NCBI GenBank assembly: GCA_025062375.1 | Contig: JANXAG010000001.1 | Coordinates: forward strand, 114,922-178,137 | DNA: 63,216 bases | Reading direction: 5' to 3' | Origin: Anaerolineae bacterium | GTDB taxonomy: Bacteria > Chloroflexota > Anaerolineae > SpSt-600 | In this document: one piece after another, positions 12,317 through 23,967 of the stretch | Position numbering within the stretch: the stretch's first letter is position 1 | Layout: each line of letters opens with the position of its first letter | Notes under the pieces: generated by a model | The model's input: the letters and a program-made list of their open reading frames with translations, nothing else | What the model was told of the DNA's origin: nothing | Databases searched by the model: none | Translations under genes and position numbers: made by a program

Positions 12317-13699
12317 ATGGGAGAACTCGCACGGTTGATCAACAAAGAGCTTGGAACCAACGTTTTCCTCTGCTATCAATGCAAGAAATGCACCAATGGC
12401 TGTCCGCTGGCTGATAAATTTGACCTCACCCCTCATCAGCTCATGCGTTACCTTCAGCTGGGGCGCGATGATGTGGTTCTTCGCTCCCGCACCGCCTGGC
12501 TTTGTGCTACGTGCTACACCTGTAGCACCCGCTGTCCCCAGGATCTGGATATCGCCCGGATAATGGACGTGGTCAAGGTGGAAGCGCAGAAGCGGGGCAT
12601 CCCATCACCATTGCCACAAATCTATGCTTTTGCCAAGGCTGGTGTGAACAACATCCGCCTCTTTGGCCGGATGTATGAGCTGGGGATGATGGCCGAAATG
12701 TACCTGCGTATGCTTCTCAGCAGAAGCCTGGACTTTAAAGGTGTCCTCCAGCGGGATGTCCCGATGGGTATAAAGATGTTTCTCAAAGGCAAGTTGAGGC
12801 TCTTGCCGGCGCGCCCTGGTAGACCGGAAGGAAAGGCTCCCGAAGGCGTTCTGGGATATTATCCCGGCTGTTCCCTCCACTCCACCTCGGCCGAATACGA
12901 TATGTCTGTTAGGGCAGTATTCCAGCACCTGGATGTGCCTCTTTATGAACCTGAGGGCTGGATATGCTGTGGCACTTCTCCTGCTCACTCTACCGATCAT
13001 GTTCTGGCTGCGGCCCTGCCCATGCAAAACATGGCCATCTTTGAAAAGGCCGGCCTGAACAGAGTGATGATGCCCTGTTCTGCCTGTTACTCTCGCTTTA
13101 AAGCGGCCGTTTACGATATCCAGCGCAATGAAAAACTGGCGGAAGCTGTGAAAGAACAGACAGGCTACGAATACAGAGGAGGCATCCAGGTCCTTCACCT
13201 TCTGGAAGCTCTTGAGGATGTGGGGTTCGGTAAAATTTCAGAAAAAGTAACCCATCCTCTCAGCGGCCTCAAAGTTGTCAGCTATTACGGTTGCCTTATC
13301 ACGCGGCCGCCTAAGATTGTGCAGGCTCCTCATTACGAATACCCAGTGATAATGGACAGGCTTGTAGAAGCCACCGGAGCCCGAAGCTTGGACTGGTCGT
13401 ACAAGACTTATTGCTGCGGTGGGTCTGTAACCCTGAGCAAGACTGACGCTGTGCTGGACATGATCCGCCGCATCATTGAAGATGCCCACAACGTCGGAGC
13501 CGATGCCATCGTGGTGGCCTGCCCCCTCTGCCAGATAAACCTGGATACCCGTCAGGACCTATTGGGGCTGGATTACCGCATGCCTGTGATTTACATAACC
13601 CAGCTTCTGGGCCTGGCTTTCGGCTTGAAACCTGCGGAGCTGGGCTTCCAGAAGCACTTTATAGACGTAAGCCCGGTTCTGAAAGTGGTAACAGCTTAA
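12317..13699 (+). CDS. HdrC-HdrB fusion protein
   Basis: Single 460-residue chain joining heterodisulfide reductase subunits C and B. Residues 1-150 are HdrC: two [4Fe-4S] motifs, C19xxCxxCxxxC29P and C63xxCxxCxxxC73P. Residues about 180-460 are HdrB: two CCG domains with WICCGTSP and YCCGGSVT plus upstream cysteines (YYPGC, MPCSAC; YYGC, ACPLCQ), which would bind noncubane clusters. In methanogens HdrB reduces CoM-S-S-CoB, but in acetogens the same proteins serve MetF complexes, so a heterodisulfide substrate need not exist here. GAGGAG lies upstream of the ATG. The stop overlaps the next gene in TAATG. Confidence 0.92.
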   Translation: MGELARLINKELGTNVFLCYQCKKCTNGCPLADKFDLTPHQLMRYLQLGRDDVVLRSRTAWLCATCYTCSTRCPQDLDIARIMDVVKVEAQKRGIPSPLPQIYAFAKAGVNNIRLFGRMYELGMMAEMYLRMLLSRSLDFKGVLQRDVPMGIKMFLKGKLRLLPARPGRPEGKAPEGVLGYYPGCSLHSTSAEYDMSVRAVFQHLDVPLYEPEGWICCGTSPAHSTDHVLAAALPMQNMAIFEKAGLNRVMMPCSACYSRFKAAVYDIQRNEKLAEAVKEQTGYEYRGGIQVLHLLEALEDVGFGKISEKVTHPLSGLKVVSYYGCLITRPPKIVQAPHYEYPVIMDRLVEATGARSLDWSYKTYCCGGSVTLSKTDAVLDMIRRIIEDAHNVGADAIVVACPLCQINLDTRQDLLGLDYRMPVIYITQLLGLAFGLKPAELGFQKHFIDVSPVLKVVTA

Positions 13700-14094
13700 T
13701 GGAACGGAGCAAAGATTGGATGGAACAGGCCGAATGGGATCTTGAGCACGCCCTGCACGACCTGGAGCATGGTTTTTACGACTGGGCATGCTTTTCTGCC
13801 CAGCAGGCGGCTGAAAAAGCCACCAAGGCGGTTTTCCAGAAACAGGGCGCTGTTGCGTGGGGGCATTCGGTGGCGGAGCTTCTCCGCGAATTGCAGAGGC
13901 ATTTTGATATACCTCAAAGCCTGATAGAAGCGGCTATGGAGCTTGACCAGGCTTATGTGCCAAGTCTTTACCCTAATGTTTTGCCTGCTGGAGCCCCGAA
14001 AGGGGCCTTCACAGAAGGACAAGCCAAGCGGTTGATAAATTATGCAGGCGAAATCCTCAGGGTCTGTAAGGATATTCTATCCGGAATGGACTAA
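13699..14094 (+). CDS. HEPN domain protein (toxin-type partner of MNT)
   Basis: HEPN-fold protein of 131 residues, the partner of MNT nucleotidyltransferases in HEPN/MNT toxin-antitoxin pairs. It shows the typical N-terminus MERSKDWMEQAEWDLEHAL, the DWACFSAQQAAEKATKAVF helix, GHS at 55-57 and the VPSLYPN motif. An R63xxxxH68 spacing exists but may be chance, so RNase activity is uncertain. It overlaps the HdrCB stop by one base and its own 3' end overlaps the MNT frame by up to 53 bases. It has no obvious role in C1 metabolism and looks inserted into the operon. It may be toxic, regulatory or inert. Confidence 0.85.
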   Translation: MERSKDWMEQAEWDLEHALHDLEHGFYDWACFSAQQAAEKATKAVFQKQGAVAWGHSVAELLRELQRHFDIPQSLIEAAMELDQAYVPSLYPNVLPAGAPKGAFTEGQAKRLINYAGEILRVCKDILSGMD

Positions 14095-15022
14095 GGAAGA
14101 ACTGGTGCAAAAGTTAAGGGAGGGCGCGGCGAGGCTGAGCCTGTTCCTTCCTGTCAAGGAGGTTATACTCTTTGGTTCGTGGGCGCGTGGCACTTACACT
14201 GTCGCCAGTGATGTGGATTTGCTGGTGATCTATGAGGGAGCAAAGAGGGAAGATGCTTTCTCCCTTGTGAAGAAGACAGTTAACGTCCCCCGTTTAGAAC
14301 CGCATGTTTATACGGAAGAGGAGTTTGACGCGCTGGGGCCTGGCTTTAAAGCCGCAGCGCGCCAGGGGTTGCTAATCTATAAAAAAATGGAGGTCCCTAT
14401 GCTTGCCGAAAAACCCCTAAACCAATTTATGGATGAACTTGCCAGCTCAGCTCCTGCTCCCGGAGGCGGAAGCGTGGCTGCTTTGGCCGGAGCCATGGGC
14501 GCTGCCCTGGTGAGCATGGTCTGCAACCTCACTATCGGCAAGAAGAAGTATGCTGATGTGGAGGAAGAGATAAAGGCCATCCTGGAACAATCGGAAGCTC
14601 TGCGCCGGGAGTTTCTGAACCTCCTGGAAGCCGATGTGGCGGCTTATACCAGGGTATCGGAAGCTATGAAAATGCCCAGGGAAACCGAAGAACAGAAAGC
14701 CATCCGGGAGGAAGCTCTTGATAAGGCCCTCAAGGAGGCTACGGAGGTCCCTCTGCGGGTGGCAGAGGCCTGTGTCAGAGTTATAGACCTCTGCCGTCCT
14801 GTGGCTGAGAAAGGCAATGTAAACGCTGTAAGCGATGCCGGAGTAGCTGTGGTGATGGCAGAGGCGGGATTGCGCAGCGCTGCCCTCAACGTGCTCATTA
14901 ACCTGGGCTGGCTTAAGGATGAGGACTTCAAAAAAGAAGCCCAGACCCGCCTGGACAAACTGTTGGAGGGCAAATCACAGCTTAAAGAAGAGATTTACGA
15001 ATTTGTAAAGAGCAAACTTTAA
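14042..15022 (+). CDS. fchA: MNT nucleotidyltransferase fused in frame to methenyl-THF cyclohydrolase FchA
   Basis: One open frame of 326 codons holding two unrelated proteins. Residues ~22-115 are a minimal nucleotidyltransferase (LFGSWARG at 43-50, D57-V-D59 metal-binding pair), the usual antitoxin partner of HEPN. Residues 120-326 are a full-length FchA/cyclodeaminase (SSAPAPGGGSVAAL, MVCNLTIGKKKY), which interconverts methenyl-THF and formyl-THF. The MNT part ends at its natural boundary and reads straight into FchA without a stop. A GGAGG at 14389-14393 allows independent FchA initiation at ATG 14399 (207 residues, normal family length). MNT may start at ATG 14042 or at GTG 14105, ten bases after the HEPN stop with AAGGA upstream. 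Confidence 0.9.
   Translation: MQAKSSGSVRIFYPEWTKEELVQKLREGAARLSLFLPVKEVILFGSWARGTYTVASDVDLLVIYEGAKREDAFSLVKKTVNVPRLEPHVYTEEEFDALGPGFKAAARQGLLIYKKMEVPMLAEKPLNQFMDELASSAPAPGGGSVAALAGAMGAALVSMVCNLTIGKKKYADVEEEIKAILEQSEALRREFLNLLEADVAAYTRVSEAMKMPRETEEQKAIREEALDKALKEATEVPLRVAEACVRVIDLCRPVAEKGNVNAVSDAGVAVVMAEAGLRSAALNVLINLGWLKDEDFKKEAQTRLDKLLEGKSQLKEEIYEFVKSKL
14389..14401 (+). promoter_or_regulatory. fchA: Internal ribosome binding site and start for fchA
   Basis: GGAGG at 14389-14393 is followed five bases later by ATG 14399-14401, which begins MLAEKPLNQFMDEL, the normal FchA N-terminus. The site lies within the last codons of the MNT part of the same frame, so the cell could make both an MNT-FchA fusion and free FchA. 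This is an inference from spacing. Confidence 0.6.
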
Positions 15023-16839: not shown

Positions 16840-18621
16840 ATGGCAAGGGAACTCTTGGTCAAACGTGTTGAACCCGTTCCTCCCGATATCGTGATTTCCC
16901 AATCCGCCAAACTTCGTCCGATCATAGAAGTGGCTGAAGAGGTGGGGCTCACTGAGGATGACCTGGAGCTCTATGGAAAGTACAAGGCCAAAGTTCACCT
17001 GGAAGTTTTGGAGCGCTTCAAGGACAAGCCCAATGGCAAATACATAGATGTGACGGCTATAAACCCCACACCCCTGGGCGAGGGCAAGACCGTAACCACC
17101 ATAGGGCTCAGCCAGGCTCTTTACTACCTGGGCAAGAAAGTCTTCACCTGCATCCGCCAGCCTTCCATGGGGCCCACTTTCAGCATCAAAGGAGGGGCGG
17201 CAGGTGGCGGCTACTCCCAGGTTGTTCCGATGGAAGATTTTAACCTTCACCTCACGGGCGATATCCATGCCGTGGGCGCAGCTCATAACCTCCTGGCAGC
17301 TGCCATAGATGCCCGTATAATGCATGAAGACCGCCTCACCGATGAGCAGCTGGCCAAGATAGGCCTCAGGCGCCTGAACATTGACCCTTACTCCATTACC
17401 TGGCCGCGGGTAGTTGACATCAACGACCGTGCCCTGCGGAAGATTATCATCGGATTGGGGACCGAAGAGGATGGGCGGCCCAGGGAGACGGGTTTTGATA
17501 TAACCGTGGCTTCGGAGATAATGGCTATACTGGCCCTGGCCACAAGCCTCAAGGACCTGCGGGAGCGCCTGGGCAGAATTGTCATTGGAACTGATAAGAA
17601 GGGTAACCCCATCACAGCTGAGGACCTGGGTGTAGCCGGGGCAATGACTGTGCTCCTGAAGGATGCCCTGATGCCCAACTTAATGCAGACTCTCCAGGGC
17701 AACCCGGCTTTCGTCCACACAGGGCCTTTCGCTAACATTGCCCACGGTAACTCCTCCATAGTGGCCGACTACATCGCCCTGAAGCTGGTAGGAGAAGATG
17801 GCTACGTGGTTACCGAATCGGGCTTTGGCGCTGACTGCGGCATGGAGAAGTTCTTCAACATCAAATGCCGGTTCTCGGGTCTCATCCCCAACTGTGTGGT
17901 GGTAGTAGCCAGCGTCAGGGCTCTAAAGATGCACGGTGGCGGCCCCAGGGTTGTGCCCGGAAGACCCCTCGACCCCGCTTACACCGAAGAAAACCTGGAG
18001 CTTGTGGAGAAGGGCCTCAGCAACCTGGAAGCCATCCTTGATATCGTTAAACTCTTCGGGGTTCCCGCAGTGGTGGCCATTAACCGTTTCCCCACCGATA
18101 CCAAAGCGGAGCTGGAGCTCATAAAGAAAGCAGCCCTGGAATTTGGTGCTGAGGCCGCTTGCATCTCCGAGGTCTGGGCCAAAGGTGGGGAGGGCGGAGT
18201 AGAGCTCGCCGAGGCTGTAATTGCCGCTGCCAATAAGCCTTCTCAGTTCCGCTTCCTCTACCCACTGGACATCCCCATCAAGGAAAAGATTGAAATAATC
18301 GCTACCAAAGTCTACGGGGCTGATGGGGTGGATTACAGCCAGGAAGCCGAACGGAAGATCGCCCTCTATACCAAGCTTGGCTACGATAAATTCCCCATCT
18401 GCATAGCCAAGACCCAGTATTCCCTGAGCCACGACCCCAACCTGAAAGGCCGTCCCAAGGGGTTCCGGCTTCCCGTCCGCGACATAAGGGCCTCGGTGGG
18501 GGCTGGTTTCCTCTACCCGCTCTGCGGCGAGATACGCACGATGCCCGGTCTCCCCAGCCGGCCAGCCTTTATGGACGTGGACATTGATCTGGAGACCGGA
18601 AAGATAAAGGGCCTGTTCTAA
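16840..18621 (+). CDS. fhs: Formate--tetrahydrofolate ligase
   Basis: ATP-dependent ligase making 10-formyl-THF from formate, the entry step of the Wood-Ljungdahl methyl branch; cytoplasmic, usually tetrameric. The 593-residue protein has the P-loop PTPLGEGKT at 76-84, the [21 protein letters not shown]-type substrate segment, [20 protein letters not shown] and [10 protein letters not shown]. It is somewhat longer than the common ~557 form, mainly from an extended N-terminus. AAAGGAGGAG precedes the ATG. It is the last gene before a strong hairpin, so it closes the methyl-branch operon. Confidence 0.97.
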
Positions 18622-18627
18622 GGGAAA

Positions 18628-18653
18628 AAGGGGGCGGGCTTCACCCGCCCCCC
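18628..18653 (+). terminator. GC-rich hairpin after fhs
   Basis: AAGGGGGCGGG pairs with CCCGCCCCC and TT around a short CTTCA loop. It is followed by TTAAATAAAAAAA rather than a clean U-tract, so rho-independent termination may be incomplete. A promoter follows within 25 bases, which supports a transcription unit boundary here. Confidence 0.7.
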
Positions 18654-18719: not shown

Positions 18720-19052
18720 ATGGAAAAGGTGGTCATTGACCTTCCTTCAATGTATGGTGACCATCACGTCAAAAGGGTTAGAGAGGTGCTCCTGGGTCTG
18801 GAGGGGGTTCAGGACGTTTACGCCAGCTCCATGCTAAGGAAAGTGGTTGTTTCCTACGACAGCTCCAAACTCAGCCCCTCGGTTCTGGAATCAAAGCTTA
18901 AGGAAGCTGGGTACGAACCCGGAAAAGAACCTGAAATCCCTCGTCCACCGCGCCACACCGAAGACCAATCCCCCTGGTTCAAAGTGATAAAACGCGTCAC
19001 TCAAACCGACCGGCGTGATATTGAGATGGCCGGTGACTTCAGGAGGTATTAA
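18720..19052 (+). CDS. HMA-like (heavy-metal-associated fold) protein preceding cooS
   Basis: The 110-residue protein has an N-terminal domain (about residues 1-68) that reads like a ferredoxin-fold HMA domain: a first strand VVIDLPSMYGDHHVKRVREVL, then GVQDVYASSMLRKVVVSYDS and LESKLKEAGYEP. The metal-binding CxxC of classic HMA domains is absent; the loop has Met11, His15 and His16 instead, which could bind nickel or copper but this is speculation. The ~40-residue C-terminal tail is unrecognised. It is the first gene of the CODH/ACS unit and 24 bases from cooS, so a role in CODH/ACS metal loading is a reasonable guess. Confidence 0.6.
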   Translation: MEKVVIDLPSMYGDHHVKRVREVLLGLEGVQDVYASSMLRKVVVSYDSSKLSPSVLESKLKEAGYEPGKEPEIPRPPRHTEDQSPWFKVIKRVTQTDRRDIEMAGDFRRY

Positions 19053-19076: not shown

Positions 19077-21065
19077 ATGGGAGGGAACGGATATAAAAGC
19101 ATAGATCCAGCTGCTCAGGAAATGCTCAGGATTGCTGAGGAAGAGGGCTATGAAACGGTATTTTCCAGGGCGGAAGAAATTAAGCCCTGCCCTATAGGGC
19201 GGGATGGAGCTTGTTGCAAGCACTGCTTCATGGGCCCATGCCGCCTGGTGGGCAAAACCCTCGTCGGGGTTTGCGGTGCTACCCTTGACACAGTGGTGGC
19301 GCGCAACCTGGCAAGGGCTATCGCCGCTGGTTCGGCCTCCCACGGAGACCACGGGCGCGATATGGCCCTGACCCTTCTGGCGGCGGCCGAAGGCGAAGCC
19401 CCCGATTACCGCATAAGAGACCTCCAGAAACTCCTGGAAGTGGCTGATATCCTGGGTGTGCCTTACAAAGACCGGGATGAAAAGGATATAGCCAGGGATG
19501 TAGCTCTCAGGGTTCTGGCTGAGTTCGGCCAGCAGAAGGGAGAACTTACTTACCTGAAGCGTGCTCCTCTGCGCCGTCAGGAAATATGGCGAAAGTATGG
19601 GATCGCCCCCCGGGGCATTGACCGCGAGGTGGTGGACCTGCTGCACCGAACCCATATGGGGAATGATCAGGACGCTGAGCACTTGCTCCTGGGGGCTATG
19701 CGGTGTGCTCTGGCCGATGGGTGGGGCGGTTCAATGTTCTCCACTGATATCACTGACATCCTCTTTGGTTCCCCCGCTCCCCTGAGGACAAAAGCCAACC
19801 TTGGGGCCCTGAAAGAGGACGAGGTTAACATCGTAGTGCACGGCCATGAGCCCCTTTTCTCCGAAATGGTGGTCCTGGCGATAAACGACCCCGAACTCAT
19901 TGAGTATGCCAAATCTAAAGGAGCCAAGGGCATCAACCTGGTTGGAATTTGCTGCACTGCCAATGAAACCCTTATGCGCCAGGGGATTCCCACTGTGGGC
20001 AACTTCCTCCATCAGGAGCTGGCTCTCCTTACTGGCGCCGTTGACCTGATGGCTGTGGATGTTCAGTGCATAATGCAAGCCCTTGCCCCGTTGGCAGATC
20101 AATTCCATACCAAGTTCGTCACCGTCTCGCCTAAGGTAAAGGTTAAGGGCGCTATTCACGTGGAGTTTGATGAAAGCCGGGCCCTGGAAATCGCCAAGCA
20201 GATAGTCAGAATGGCTATTGACAACTTCCCCAACAGGGGCAAGGTCCGCATACCCAAGCATGTATCCGAGGTGGTGGCAGGCTTTTCCCACGAATACATA
20301 ACTTACGCTCTTGGCGGCTTTTTCCGTGGCTCTTTCCGCCCCCTCAATGATGCCATCATCCAGGGACGCATCCGGGGAGTAGCCGGGGTGGTCGGGTGCA
20401 ACAACCCGCGCTCCACTCAGGACGCCGCCCACGAATACATCGTCAAAGAATTCATCAAGAACGACGTCCTGGTGGTGCAGACAGGGTGCGGAGCCATTGC
20501 GGCGGCGAAGTATGGGCTTATGCTTCCCGAAATGATGGAGGAGGTTGGCCCCGGACTGAGGGAAATCTGCGAGGCCGTGGGCATCCCACCTGTCCTGCAC
20601 ATGGGTGCGTGTGTTGATAACACCCGCATCCTCACCGTAGCCAGCCAGATGGCCACCGAGGGCGGCCTGGGAGAAGACATCTCTGATCTTCCGGCAGTGG
20701 GGATTGCTCCTGAATGGATGAGCGAGAAAGCCCTGGCCATCGGGACTTACTTCGCTGCCTCGGGCGTGTATGTTATGTTCGGAGTTGGCTCGCCCATTAA
20801 GGCCAGCGAAGAAGTCCAGCGCATAATGAGCGAGGGCTGGGAGAAAACGGTGGGTGGTAAGCTGGAGTTCGTGGAGGATCCCCAGGAAATTGTCCGCCGG
20901 GCCCTTGAACACATTGATCGGAAGCGGGCAGCCCTTGGTCTTGAGGAATACAACCCCGCCAGGTTCGGAAAGAGCGGCGACCGCCTCATGCTTCAGTTCC
21001 TGAAGGCTTTAGAAGAGGGCAAAGAAGTGAGTCTCTACAGTGCCAGGAGCCTGGTGGAAGCATAA
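19077..21065 (+). CDS. cooS: Anaerobic Ni-Fe-S carbon monoxide dehydrogenase catalytic subunit
   Basis: Interconverts CO and CO2 at the Ni-containing C cluster; in the carbonyl branch it supplies CO to acetyl-CoA synthase. The 662-residue protein is of bacterial CooS/AcsA type. N-terminal cysteines C38, C46, C47, C50 and C55 (CPIGRDGACCKHCFMGPC) match the D and B clusters. Downstream HMGACVDNTR and GCNNPRSTQD belong to the C-cluster region. It is followed by acsB, so it is probably the ACS-associated form rather than a free-standing CO-oxidising enzyme. No cooC nickel-insertion ATPase is seen in the window. Confidence 0.96.
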   Translation: MGGNGYKSIDPAAQEMLRIAEEEGYETVFSRAEEIKPCPIGRDGACCKHCFMGPCRLVGKTLVGVCGATLDTVVARNLARAIAAGSASHGDHGRDMALTLLAAAEGEAPDYRIRDLQKLLEVADILGVPYKDRDEKDIARDVALRVLAEFGQQKGELTYLKRAPLRRQEIWRKYGIAPRGIDREVVDLLHRTHMGNDQDAEHLLLGAMRCALADGWGGSMFSTDITDILFGSPAPLRTKANLGALKEDEVNIVVHGHEPLFSEMVVLAINDPELIEYAKSKGAKGINLVGICCTANETLMRQGIPTVGNFLHQELALLTGAVDLMAVDVQCIMQALAPLADQFHTKFVTVSPKVKVKGAIHVEFDESRALEIAKQIVRMAIDNFPNRGKVRIPKHVSEVVAGFSHEYITYALGGFFRGSFRPLNDAIIQGRIRGVAGVVGCNNPRSTQDAAHEYIVKEFIKNDVLVVQTGCGAIAAAKYGLMLPEMMEEVGPGLREICEAVGIPPVLHMGACVDNTRILTVASQMATEGGLGEDISDLPAVGIAPEWMSEKALAIGTYFAASGVYVMFGVGSPIKASEEVQRIMSEGWEKTVGGKLEFVEDPQEIVRRALEHIDRKRAALGLEEYNPARFGKSGDRLMLQFLKALEEGKEVSLYSARSLVEA

Positions 21066-21175: not shown

Positions 21176-23461
21176 ATGTCCCGGTATATTGCCACCCGTG
21201 CAATAAGAGGTGCCAACTACATCGTCAATGAAGCGGAGAAAATGCTTCAGAAAGCTCTCCAGGAGCTTGGCCCGGAGACCAAAGTGGCCTTCCCCAACAC
21301 TGCTTACTACCTTCCAGTGATCTACGGCCTCACCGGTATTCAGGTCACCAAACTGAAAGACCTGGAGAAAGTTCTGGAGATAGCCAGAAGCCTTTTGCAT
21401 CCTATCCCTGAAGAGAAGCATTGGCTTCCTTACCTGGGGGAAACGCTGGACTGTGGAGCAGCTACCCTCCTGGCTGAGGAAGCCATTGAAGGTATCCGCT
21501 TCGCTTACGGCCTTGAGCCCGAAAAGATAACCTGGGGTGGGTATTACATCCCTTCCGCCAGCTTCACCGCCCCCGACTTTATGAAAGGCGAGGAGGGAAC
21601 TCGCCTCAATGGCCCCATTGATGACTCTCAGATGCGAGCCTGGGGCATCCAGCTGGTGGACGGGCGAATGCCGGGCTTTGCGGCTATCGTGGGCTGTGCC
21701 AAATCCAATGAAGTGGCTGTCCAGATTGTCCGGGAGCTCCAGCAGCGCAACATCCTTATCTTCCTTTGCGGCAACGTCAACGGTCGCTCTATCATCCACC
21801 AGCTCATGGAAGAAGGGGTGGAGATGGGCTATGATACTTACATTATCCCCTTTGGCACCGATACCATTTCAGCCATTTATGCCCTGGGATTTGCCACCCG
21901 CTCCGCCCTGAGCTTCGGTGGTCTCAAGCCGGGTCAGGCTAAAGAGATCTTGCTCTACAACAAATACAGGGTCTTCGCCTTTGTCCTGGCCCTTGGGGAA
22001 GTGGATGACCTCAAGTATGCCACCGCTGCCGGTGCCATAAACTACGGCTTCCCGGTCATCGCCGACACAATTATCCCCCAGATTCTCCCCACCGGTATAA
22101 CCCAATACGAACACGTCATCTCCATGCCTTTTGATGACATTGAGGCCAAGGACGACCTGGAGAGGGCCAGGAGGCTTGTAGAAAAATGCATTGAGGTCCG
22201 GGGAGTCAAAGTCAAGATAACCCGCATAGATATTCCTGTCCCTTACGGCTCCGCCTTTGAAGGCGAGAGAGTGCGCCGCCAGGACATGAGGGTGGAGTTT
22301 GGTGGGAAAGATTCCCGCTGTTTTGAATACCTCTACATGAAGCCTCTGGAAGAGGTGGAGGACGGCAAGATTGAGGTCATAGGGCCCGATTTTGACGAGG
22401 TGCCGGAAGGCGGGGCCATGGACATGGGCATAGTTGTAGAGGTAGCCGGGCGCAAGATGCAGAAAGACTTTGAACCTGTCCTTGAACGCCAGATCCACTA
22501 CTTCATCAACGGTGCCTCGGGCATCCAGCACATAGGCCAGAGGGATATCGCCTGGATCCGGGTTTCCAAGAAAGCTGCCCAGGCCGGCTTCAGGCTGGAA
22601 CACTTCGGCAAAATCCTCCATGCCCGGTTCCACTCCGATTTTGGCGCCATCGTGGACAAAGTTCAGGTCAAGATAATCACCGATAAAGACCTTCTCCAGG
22701 AGTGGCTCCAGAAAGCCCGCGAAGCCTACAGTATCCGCAACCGCCGTCTGGAGGAGATGACGGATGAAGCCGTGGAGGAATTTTACTCCTGCACCCTCTG
22801 CCAGAGCTTCGCCCCCAACCACGTTTGTATAATAAGCCCGGAGCGCCTGGGGCTGTGCGGGGCCTACAACTGGCTGGACTGCAAGGCTTCCCACCAGATT
22901 AATCCCACAGGGCCCAACCAGCCTATTCCCAAAGGCAAAGTTCTGGATGAGTGGAAGGGCTACTTTGAAGGCATTAACCGCTTCGTAAAGCAGGCTTCCC
23001 ACGGGCACGTTGAGCAGGTAGCCATGTATTCCATCATGGAGAACCCGATGACCGCCTGCGGGTGCTTCGAGTGTTTGATGATGGTGATCCCAGAGGCCAA
23101 CGGCTTCATGGTGGTCAGCCGCGAGGATCCATCCATGACCCCAGCTGGGATGACTTTCTCCACTCTGGCAGGAATGGCTGGCGGTGGTCTCCAGACTCCG
23201 GGCGTAATGGGTGTGGGCAAATACTTCCTCCTCTCCAAGAAGTTTATCAGGGCCGATGGTGGTTTCAAGCGCATCGTGTGGATGTCCAGCTTCCTCAAGG
23301 AAACCATGAAGGAAGAACTCCAGAAGGTTTGCGAGCGAGAGGGTGACCCTGACCTTCTGGACAAGATAGCTGACGAAAGGGTTGCTACCACCGTGGAAGA
23401 GCTTCTGGCTTACCTTGAGGAGAAAGGCCATCCGGCCCTTACGATGCCGCCGTTGTTCTAA
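21176..23461 (+). CDS. acsB: CO-methylating acetyl-CoA synthase (AcsB)
   Basis: Joins CO, a methyl group from the corrinoid protein and CoA into acetyl-CoA at the A cluster. The 761-residue protein has the full bacterial architecture, including the N-terminal CODH-contacting domain. The A-cluster cysteines are visible: C539xxC542, C551 and C561 for the cubane, and C628-G-C630 for the distal nickel (ACGCFEC). GGAGGTGTAGGTC precedes the ATG. The corrinoid Fe-S protein subunits (acsC, acsD) and methyltransferase acsE that normally neighbour it are not in the window. Confidence 0.97.
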   Translation: MSRYIATRAIRGANYIVNEAEKMLQKALQELGPETKVAFPNTAYYLPVIYGLTGIQVTKLKDLEKVLEIARSLLHPIPEEKHWLPYLGETLDCGAATLLAEEAIEGIRFAYGLEPEKITWGGYYIPSASFTAPDFMKGEEGTRLNGPIDDSQMRAWGIQLVDGRMPGFAAIVGCAKSNEVAVQIVRELQQRNILIFLCGNVNGRSIIHQLMEEGVEMGYDTYIIPFGTDTISAIYALGFATRSALSFGGLKPGQAKEILLYNKYRVFAFVLALGEVDDLKYATAAGAINYGFPVIADTIIPQILPTGITQYEHVISMPFDDIEAKDDLERARRLVEKCIEVRGVKVKITRIDIPVPYGSAFEGERVRRQDMRVEFGGKDSRCFEYLYMKPLEEVEDGKIEVIGPDFDEVPEGGAMDMGIVVEVAGRKMQKDFEPVLERQIHYFINGASGIQHIGQRDIAWIRVSKKAAQAGFRLEHFGKILHARFHSDFGAIVDKVQVKIITDKDLLQEWLQKAREAYSIRNRRLEEMTDEAVEEFYSCTLCQSFAPNHVCIISPERLGLCGAYNWLDCKASHQINPTGPNQPIPKGKVLDEWKGYFEGINRFVKQASHGHVEQVAMYSIMENPMTACGCFECLMMVIPEANGFMVVSREDPSMTPAGMTFSTLAGMAGGGLQTPGVMGVGKYFLLSKKFIRADGGFKRIVWMSSFLKETMKEELQKVCEREGDPDLLDKIADERVATTVEELLAYLEEKGHPALTMPPLF

Positions 23462-23559: not shown

Positions 23560-23967
23560 ATGAAGAAGCTCGTTAGAGACATAATGCACAAAGGCGTTAT
23601 TTCCTGCGGCCCGGAAACTCCCCTTCAGGAGGTAATAAGAGTCATAGCTGATACTGATGTCCACGCCATAGTGGTTACGGGCCCCGAAGGCTACATAAAG
23701 GGCATAATTTCCCACATGGATATTCTCCCCCTTTACGGCCAGGACATCTCCAGCTATAAAGCCAAAGATATCATGAAATCGCCCGTCATCTCCGTGCACC
23801 CCGATACCCCGGTGGAAGAGGCTACCAGGATAATGCTGGAAAACAAAATCCATCGGGTAATCGTTACCATTGAATCCGAAAAAGGCAGTGAACCCATCGG
23901 AGTCCTTTCCACCACGGATATCATCAGAGACATGCGTGGCCCCAAATGGGTCTGGTATATGGGATAG
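23560..23967 (+). CDS. Tandem CBS-domain protein
   Basis: The 135-residue protein is made only of two CBS motifs: VRDIMHKGVISCGPETPLQEV with a first domain, then AKDIMKSPVISVHPDTPVEEA with a second. Such stand-alone CBS pairs bind adenine nucleotides and act as energy or redox sensors, or on unknown partners. It starts after AAGGAGG, just downstream of the hairpin closing acsB. Its position suggests a link to C1/energy metabolism, but no target can be named. Confidence 0.88.
   Translation: MKKLVRDIMHKGVISCGPETPLQEVIRVIADTDVHAIVVTGPEGYIKGIISHMDILPLYGQDISSYKAKDIMKSPVISVHPDTPVEEATRIMLENKIHRVIVTIESEKGSEPIGVLSTTDIIRDMRGPKWVWYMG

Follow-up and report, generated by a model that had tools for sequence, protein, structure and literature searches.

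According to parts of a review of the field (PMC6006190), the known accessory proteins of CODH are CooC, CooT and CooJ, whose mechanism is unresolved, and the mechanism of nickel insertion into CODH is there called undetermined. Our literature search yielded no paper tying a protein of the HMA, or copper-chaperone, type to CODH/ACS, and such a protein is not mentioned in parts of the main text of PMC6006190, PMC6344411 and PMC13240472, the supplements of which could still list one. Here we describe a small HMA-fold protein, for brevity the 'companion', which is encoded next to the genes of CODH/ACS and which, among proteins of solved structure, is closest in sequence to CopZ, MerP and the domains of copper ATPases.

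The open reading frame at positions 18720–19052 (plus strand) of the window, that is, of the whole stretch of 63,216 nucleotides analysed, is a real gene, and a strong ribosome-binding site, GGAGGAGG, lies directly 5' of its ATG. It encodes 110 residues, among them three histidines and not a single cysteine, and its annotation as a Cys-free HMA-fold companion of CODH/ACS draws on the Pfam match to HMA, the match to the CopZ fold and the adjacency of cooS. The gene is located 98 bp 3' of fhs (16840–18621, plus strand; formate-THF ligase, PF01268 at 864 bits), which is by synteny the usual upstream neighbor in loci of the A-type defined below, and 24 bp 5' of cooS (19077–21065, plus strand; anaerobic CO dehydrogenase, TIGR01702 at 617.7 bits). 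Then follow acsB (21176–23461, plus strand; acetyl-CoA synthase, NF040764 at 1009.7 bits, with the A-cluster CGC present in an alignment to 7zkj_B) and a gene for a protein with two CBS domains (23560–23967, plus strand; Pfam CBS at 96.8 bits), a CBS match after acsB being found in a minority of related loci. The gene order thus agrees with the original prediction that an HMA gene heads a unit with cooS and acsB. The promoter of its own that had been claimed for this unit was not recovered: a scan for sigma-70 promoters returned 0 sites, with 0.6 expected from shuffled sequence, and a perfect TATAAT seen by eye before the companion gene goes with a −35 element fitting at just 3 of 6 positions. 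A GC-rich hairpin after fhs (18630–18652, plus strand; −22 kcal/mol, z −2.09), which has no T-run on the plus strand, hints at a possible transcript boundary. Further upstream, at 13699–15022, the window contains an open reading frame which we take to be HEPN-like, followed by a nucleotidyltransferase fused in frame to FchA (326 residues, PF01909 and PF04961). At a locus of the same genus (L054) FchA directly follows an Hdr-like gene, so that the HEPN/nucleotidyltransferase pair seems to have been inserted in the window; nucleotidyltransferase- and HEPN-like frames, named by eye, also occur between cooS and acsB in L147 (5314–6441).

The companion matches the Pfam family HMA (PF00403) over residues 6–66 with 37.6 bits at a cut-off of 24.8, and no further Pfam profile is matched at E-values up to 1. 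An AlphaFold model, built with 63 sequences, exhibits block pLDDT values of 92–95 for residues 1–70 and of 64–76 for the tail, which is thus less certain than the domain. Residues 1–68 of the model superimpose on CopZ (2qif_B) with a Z-score of 13.8 and an r.m.s.d. of 0.8 Å over 68 residues (VIA-align), and the top Foldseek matches are MerP and CopZ. The ferredoxin-like fold that had been expected for an HMA-like protein lacking CxxC is therefore predicted, and both the Pfam score and the CopZ alignment bear this expectation out. As had likewise been noted from the sequence, the loop that replaces MxCxxC contains Met and His residues and is devoid of Cys: GMSCQHC of CopZ aligns to SMYGDHH (residues 10–16; 18747–18767, plus strand), such that Cys 13 of CopZ becomes Gly, Cys 16 becomes His, Asp-His is placed in between, and the loop reads M-Y-G-D-H-H. 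With 26.3 bits, the protein falls below the cut-off of 91 set for the NCBIfam CopZ family.

When the companion was used as query against 298 genomes of its class, 129 were matched at E≤0.001 and 116 contained strong relatives. The 13 genomes with weak matches alone (E-values of 2.9e-5 to 7.4e-4) were set aside as carrying other HMA domains, an assignment made without case-by-case checks, and second, weak matches in the retained genomes were also left out; the resulting 118 family matches comprise 117 at E≤1.2e-10 and one tail fragment (G089:C170, 6.3e-8). Conservation was counted over 59 distinct relatives from 60 fetched loci of this whole-protein search; 80 further loci from named genomes were excluded from the motif counts, since the scan that retrieved them had itself selected for Px[ML]Y[AG]DHHV or for the tail. 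Asp 14, His 15 and His 16 are retained in all 58 distinct relatives that cover the loop, in which position 13 is Ala (45) or Gly (13), and CxxC is found in none of the 59. Pro 9, Gly 29 and Tyr 65 are also invariant, Ala 35 and Ser 36 are, like Pro 9, Tyr 65 and the loop, invariant or nearly so, and the features Met/Leu 11 and Gly 64-Tyr 65 of the CopZ site are kept. Judged by this alignment, the unusual Cys-free loop is the signature of a conserved family and not that of a degenerate CopZ. The family alignment also delineates a conserved C-terminal tail (residues 85–110; 18972–19049, plus strand), which in the window protein ends in DIEMAGDFRRY and belongs to the 'A-type' (MSGDFRKY-like, or DLEMSGDFRKY-like, ends; 41 of the 59 relatives). 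Another 15 relatives have a 'B-type' tail of the GRPLWPCPG kind, and three have neither. Among the best 80 of 215 named relatives, fhs is seen in 0 of 28 B-type loci.

Linkage of the family to cooS is nearly absolute and well in excess of what chance would give. In the class, 117 of the 118 matches are located directly 5' of cooS, the last one (G024:C196) being cut by a contig end. Positions of cooS were taken from the 150 class cooS among the matches listed: for 111 family matches, a listed cooS follows on the same strand at a distance of up to 6 kb, which in 109 cases is no more than 700 bp, and six more adjoin cooS when the loci are read (L147, L158–L162). In the scan of named genomes, restricted to the best 80 of 215 relatives, cooS lies downstream in 78 loci, and the other two stop at a contig edge; apart from L063 and L074 (Actinobacteria), every one of the 80 bears the label of Chloroflexota or of a subgroup thereof. 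The same neighbor thus recurs at other cooS loci, and of the two findings on which the original prediction had made itself depend, a ferredoxin-like fold and conservation beside cooS, both were obtained. In L063 and L074, which are MAGs, the family gene is accompanied by cooS-acsB and a nearby CooC-like ATPase, and either transfer or mislabelled bins may be at work.

The association extends to acsB (PF19436), which was found in 123 of the 298 class genomes. Both genes occur together in 111 genomes, the HMA gene alone in five, acsB alone in 12 and neither in 170 (Fisher p about 1e-60, with relatedness ignored). In four of the five genomes with an HMA gene but without a PF19436 match, acsB sequence is seen beside cooS where the contig stops (L148, L155, L156, L157), and in the fifth (L158) the contig ends within cooS. 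Clear exceptions among the 12 acsB-only genomes are limited to two of one genus (G012, G048), which have fhs-acsB with no cooS in between and an unlinked cooS elsewhere; since they keep acsB and cooS in the absence of the HMA gene, the companion is not universally required. In three genomes (G223, G224, G044) the cooS linked to acsB is truncated by the start or the end of the contig, and in four (G045, G100, G148, G284) acsB or cooS is situated at the contig start, as read from coordinates alone. We also considered G161 as an exception and rejected it: its contig starts in a stretch 69% identical to a 4-kb insert that separates the HMA gene from cooS in the sister locus L070, and because it starts within this insert-like stretch the HMA gene may lie off the contig. 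Taken together, the dedication of the companion to CODH/ACS is well supported.

Several features of acsB and its surroundings were observed along the way. The acsB matches of the remaining two acsB-only genomes (G240, G291) are distant, short AcsB-like proteins without cooS, and short AcsB-like proteins of about 600 residues and 36–38% identity with no cooS nearby are encoded in L153 (5133–6932) and L154 (2045–3874). By eye, AcsB carries two intein-like inserts in L098 (3259–7106), one after FYSCTLC and one at NPMTAC/GCFEC, and one such insert at the CGC site in L100 (8603–11551), so that these inserts sit exactly at metal-cluster cysteines; in nine class genomes the ACS domain is split within one open frame. 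In L096 (5893–9579) AcsB runs in frame into sequence resembling, by eye, a corrinoid protein small subunit (1228 residues), and AcsB frames of about 1200 residues occur at several other loci. Ferredoxin-like and NuoE/F/G-like genes, the Nuo names being assigned by eye, separate the HMA gene from cooS in one lineage (L070, 6421–10303; L137, 1–1435), which suggests an NAD-linked CODH/ACS.

No HMA gene lies upstream of 39 of the 150 listed class cooS, most of which are of the monofunctional kind or situated at contig edges, and the second, monofunctional cooS of the window's own genome (L143) has no HMA neighbor. A tree of CooS was built with 104 rows out of 105 proteins passing a length filter that left out broken or over-long CooS. 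Even where solitary CooS proteins branch within the HMA-associated clade of this tree (L138/L139, L140/L141, L142), their loci lack the HMA gene; the B-type loci, L052 excepted, group in what is essentially a single clade (38 rows at 100). Elsewhere in the phylum, in other classes, the two clusters of the same kind that were read (L210, L211) both contain the HMA gene, and within the fetched stretches it is absent from seven acsB clusters that belong to another clade (L198, L200, L205–L209), the AcsB proteins of which are 50–59% identical to that of the window, and from seven solitary cooS loci (L196, L197, L199, L201–L204). Hence, by gene content and the tree, the companion gene follows one CODH/ACS clade, and not CODH as such.

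The CooS proteins linked to the HMA gene share a C-terminal extension with a GxSGD motif, which is lost in the f12 CooS, whose genome has no HMA gene. A role of this extension as docking partner of the companion was considered, but in L199 the motif is present although neither acsB nor a gene of the HMA family is in view, and in L211 it is missing although the HMA gene is there; the correlation is therefore not used as evidence. In the HMA-less clade, the CooS proteins of L200 and L205–L209 possess their own conserved, KARERVLFDMAMRREL-like C-terminal extension, which is unlike GxSGD.

Genes for two CooC/AcsF-like ATPases, each having a CxC motif (at C4 and C28), for CooT (G000 C34) and for corrinoid protein subunits (C12) are present in the genome of the window. 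The original prediction of a role distinct from that of CooC/AcsF therefore holds, these ATPases and CooT being encoded elsewhere in the genome. Replacement of CooC by the companion was rejected for the same reason, so that the HMA protein is an addition and not a substitute. In tblastn searches, a CooC/AcsF-like gene is found close to cooS in six of the seven HMA-less acsB clusters, and in two of the 80 HMA loci of named genomes (the best 80 of 215), or in one if the count is confined to the 37 loci of full 12-kb length. This hints that the HMA gene and a CooC/AcsF-like gene may alternate in the maturation slot of the cluster, the hint coming from seven clusters that are related to each other.

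We tentatively favor, at somewhat less than even confidence, that the companion is a dedicated maturation or assembly factor of one CODH/ACS clade, probably a His/Asp chaperone for Ni(II); the nickel or cofactor role suggested in the original prediction would be part of this reading. Ligation by His and carboxylate groups favors Ni(II) over Cu(I). We infer that the loop would bind metal and would hold a borderline one, most likely Ni(II) because His and carboxylate suit it better than Cu(I), and that the tail would dock the companion on nascent CooS-AcsB, where it might hand over or position nickel. The recipient would more probably be the A-cluster of ACS, or a step involving the joined complex, than the C-cluster of CODH, since solitary CooS proteins do without the companion, which may thus act beside the CooC/AcsF ATPases and CooT and not in their place. 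That the protein contains just three histidines speaks against a chaperone, and the DHH loop could instead be a docking surface. The favored reading is also weakened by the CooC/AcsF-like ATPases and CooT that the genome already possesses, by the two genomes (G012, G048) that manage without the companion, and by the HTH fusions of some relatives, which point to regulation there. It is tempting to go further and to speculate that the companion is an unrecognized CODH/ACS maturation factor, namely a Cys-free HMA protein with Ni(II) bound to Asp-His-His, which loads the A-cluster while docked through its tail, is confined to one Chloroflexota-centered clade and in some lineages is fused to a DNA-binding domain, such that the nickel carrier would be sensor and regulator as well; in this full form the proposal is rather doubtful.

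A metal-free assembly or structural subunit, in which the HMA fold was repurposed for docking, the DHH loop serves as an interface and the tail clamps CooS to AcsB so as to stabilize the complex or to gate the CO channel, is a somewhat unlikely but serious alternative. It accounts equally for the strict linkage to acsB-paired and not to solitary cooS, and is consistent with the near-invariance of Pro 9, Ala 35, Ser 36 and Tyr 65 alongside the loop as well as with a tail that is conserved yet modelled at low confidence. It does not account, however, for the choice of the invariant loop residues, that is, for a tandem His and an Asp that never vary exactly at the HMA metal site, nor for the retention of Met/Leu 11 and Gly 64-Tyr 65 from the site of CopZ.

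Less probable still is a metal-, redox- or CO-responsive regulator of cooS-acsB, in which the HMA domain and the tail would constitute a sensor and DNA would be bound by a fused HTH or by a partner. Such a role is suggested by an N-terminal HTH_17/MerR-like domain fused in frame at 13 loci (about 10 distinct, as three pairs apparently represent the same genomes), by Pfam HTH scores above the cut-off in the four fusions scanned, and by the occurrence of the fusion in 11 of 44 B-type loci. Most relatives and the window protein, however, have neither a DNA-binding domain nor a separate HTH frame upstream, and the gene, which is oriented like the cooS that it precedes, was not found where cooS is solitary. 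Finally, an ordinary CopZ-type copper chaperone with a decayed site and an incidental position is scarcely credible, since, although CopZ and MerP are the best matches in sequence and fold, the score is far below the CopZ cut-off, the loop is invariant and the linkage is near-absolute across 116 genomes.

On the preferred reading, a small, soluble and strictly linked companion represents a directly testable candidate for nickel delivery to CODH/ACS, with practical bearing on the expression of active CODH/ACS from uncultured Chloroflexota. The range of the HMA domain is widened as well, by a family whose Cys-free site is invariant and which occurs in 116 of the 298 genomes sampled from one class.

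Among known systems, CCS, the copper chaperone for SOD1, which is among the Foldseek matches, likewise combines an HMA domain with an extra, target-specific part. CCS features a SOD-like domain and a CxC tail; the companion has neither, and its target is a different one. With the MinD-type nickel-insertion ATPases CooC/AcsF it has the CODH/ACS neighborhood in common, but it is a protein of 110 residues with no P-loop and with HMA as its sole Pfam match. CooT and CooJ are, like the companion, small, operon-linked accessory proteins with a possible role in nickel supply, as described in parts of PMC6006190; CooT, however, constitutes a separate family (PF10133) which the companion does not match, and a domain of CooJ contains 16 His (parts of PMC6006190), whereas the companion has no His-rich C-terminal region. 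Closest are CopZ, Atx1 and MerP (PF00403), with which it shares the fold, the domain length, the position of the loop, the Met/Leu before it and Tyr 65, and from which it differs by its D-H-H loop without Cys, by its added conserved tail and by its tie to CODH/ACS in place of copper or mercury genes.
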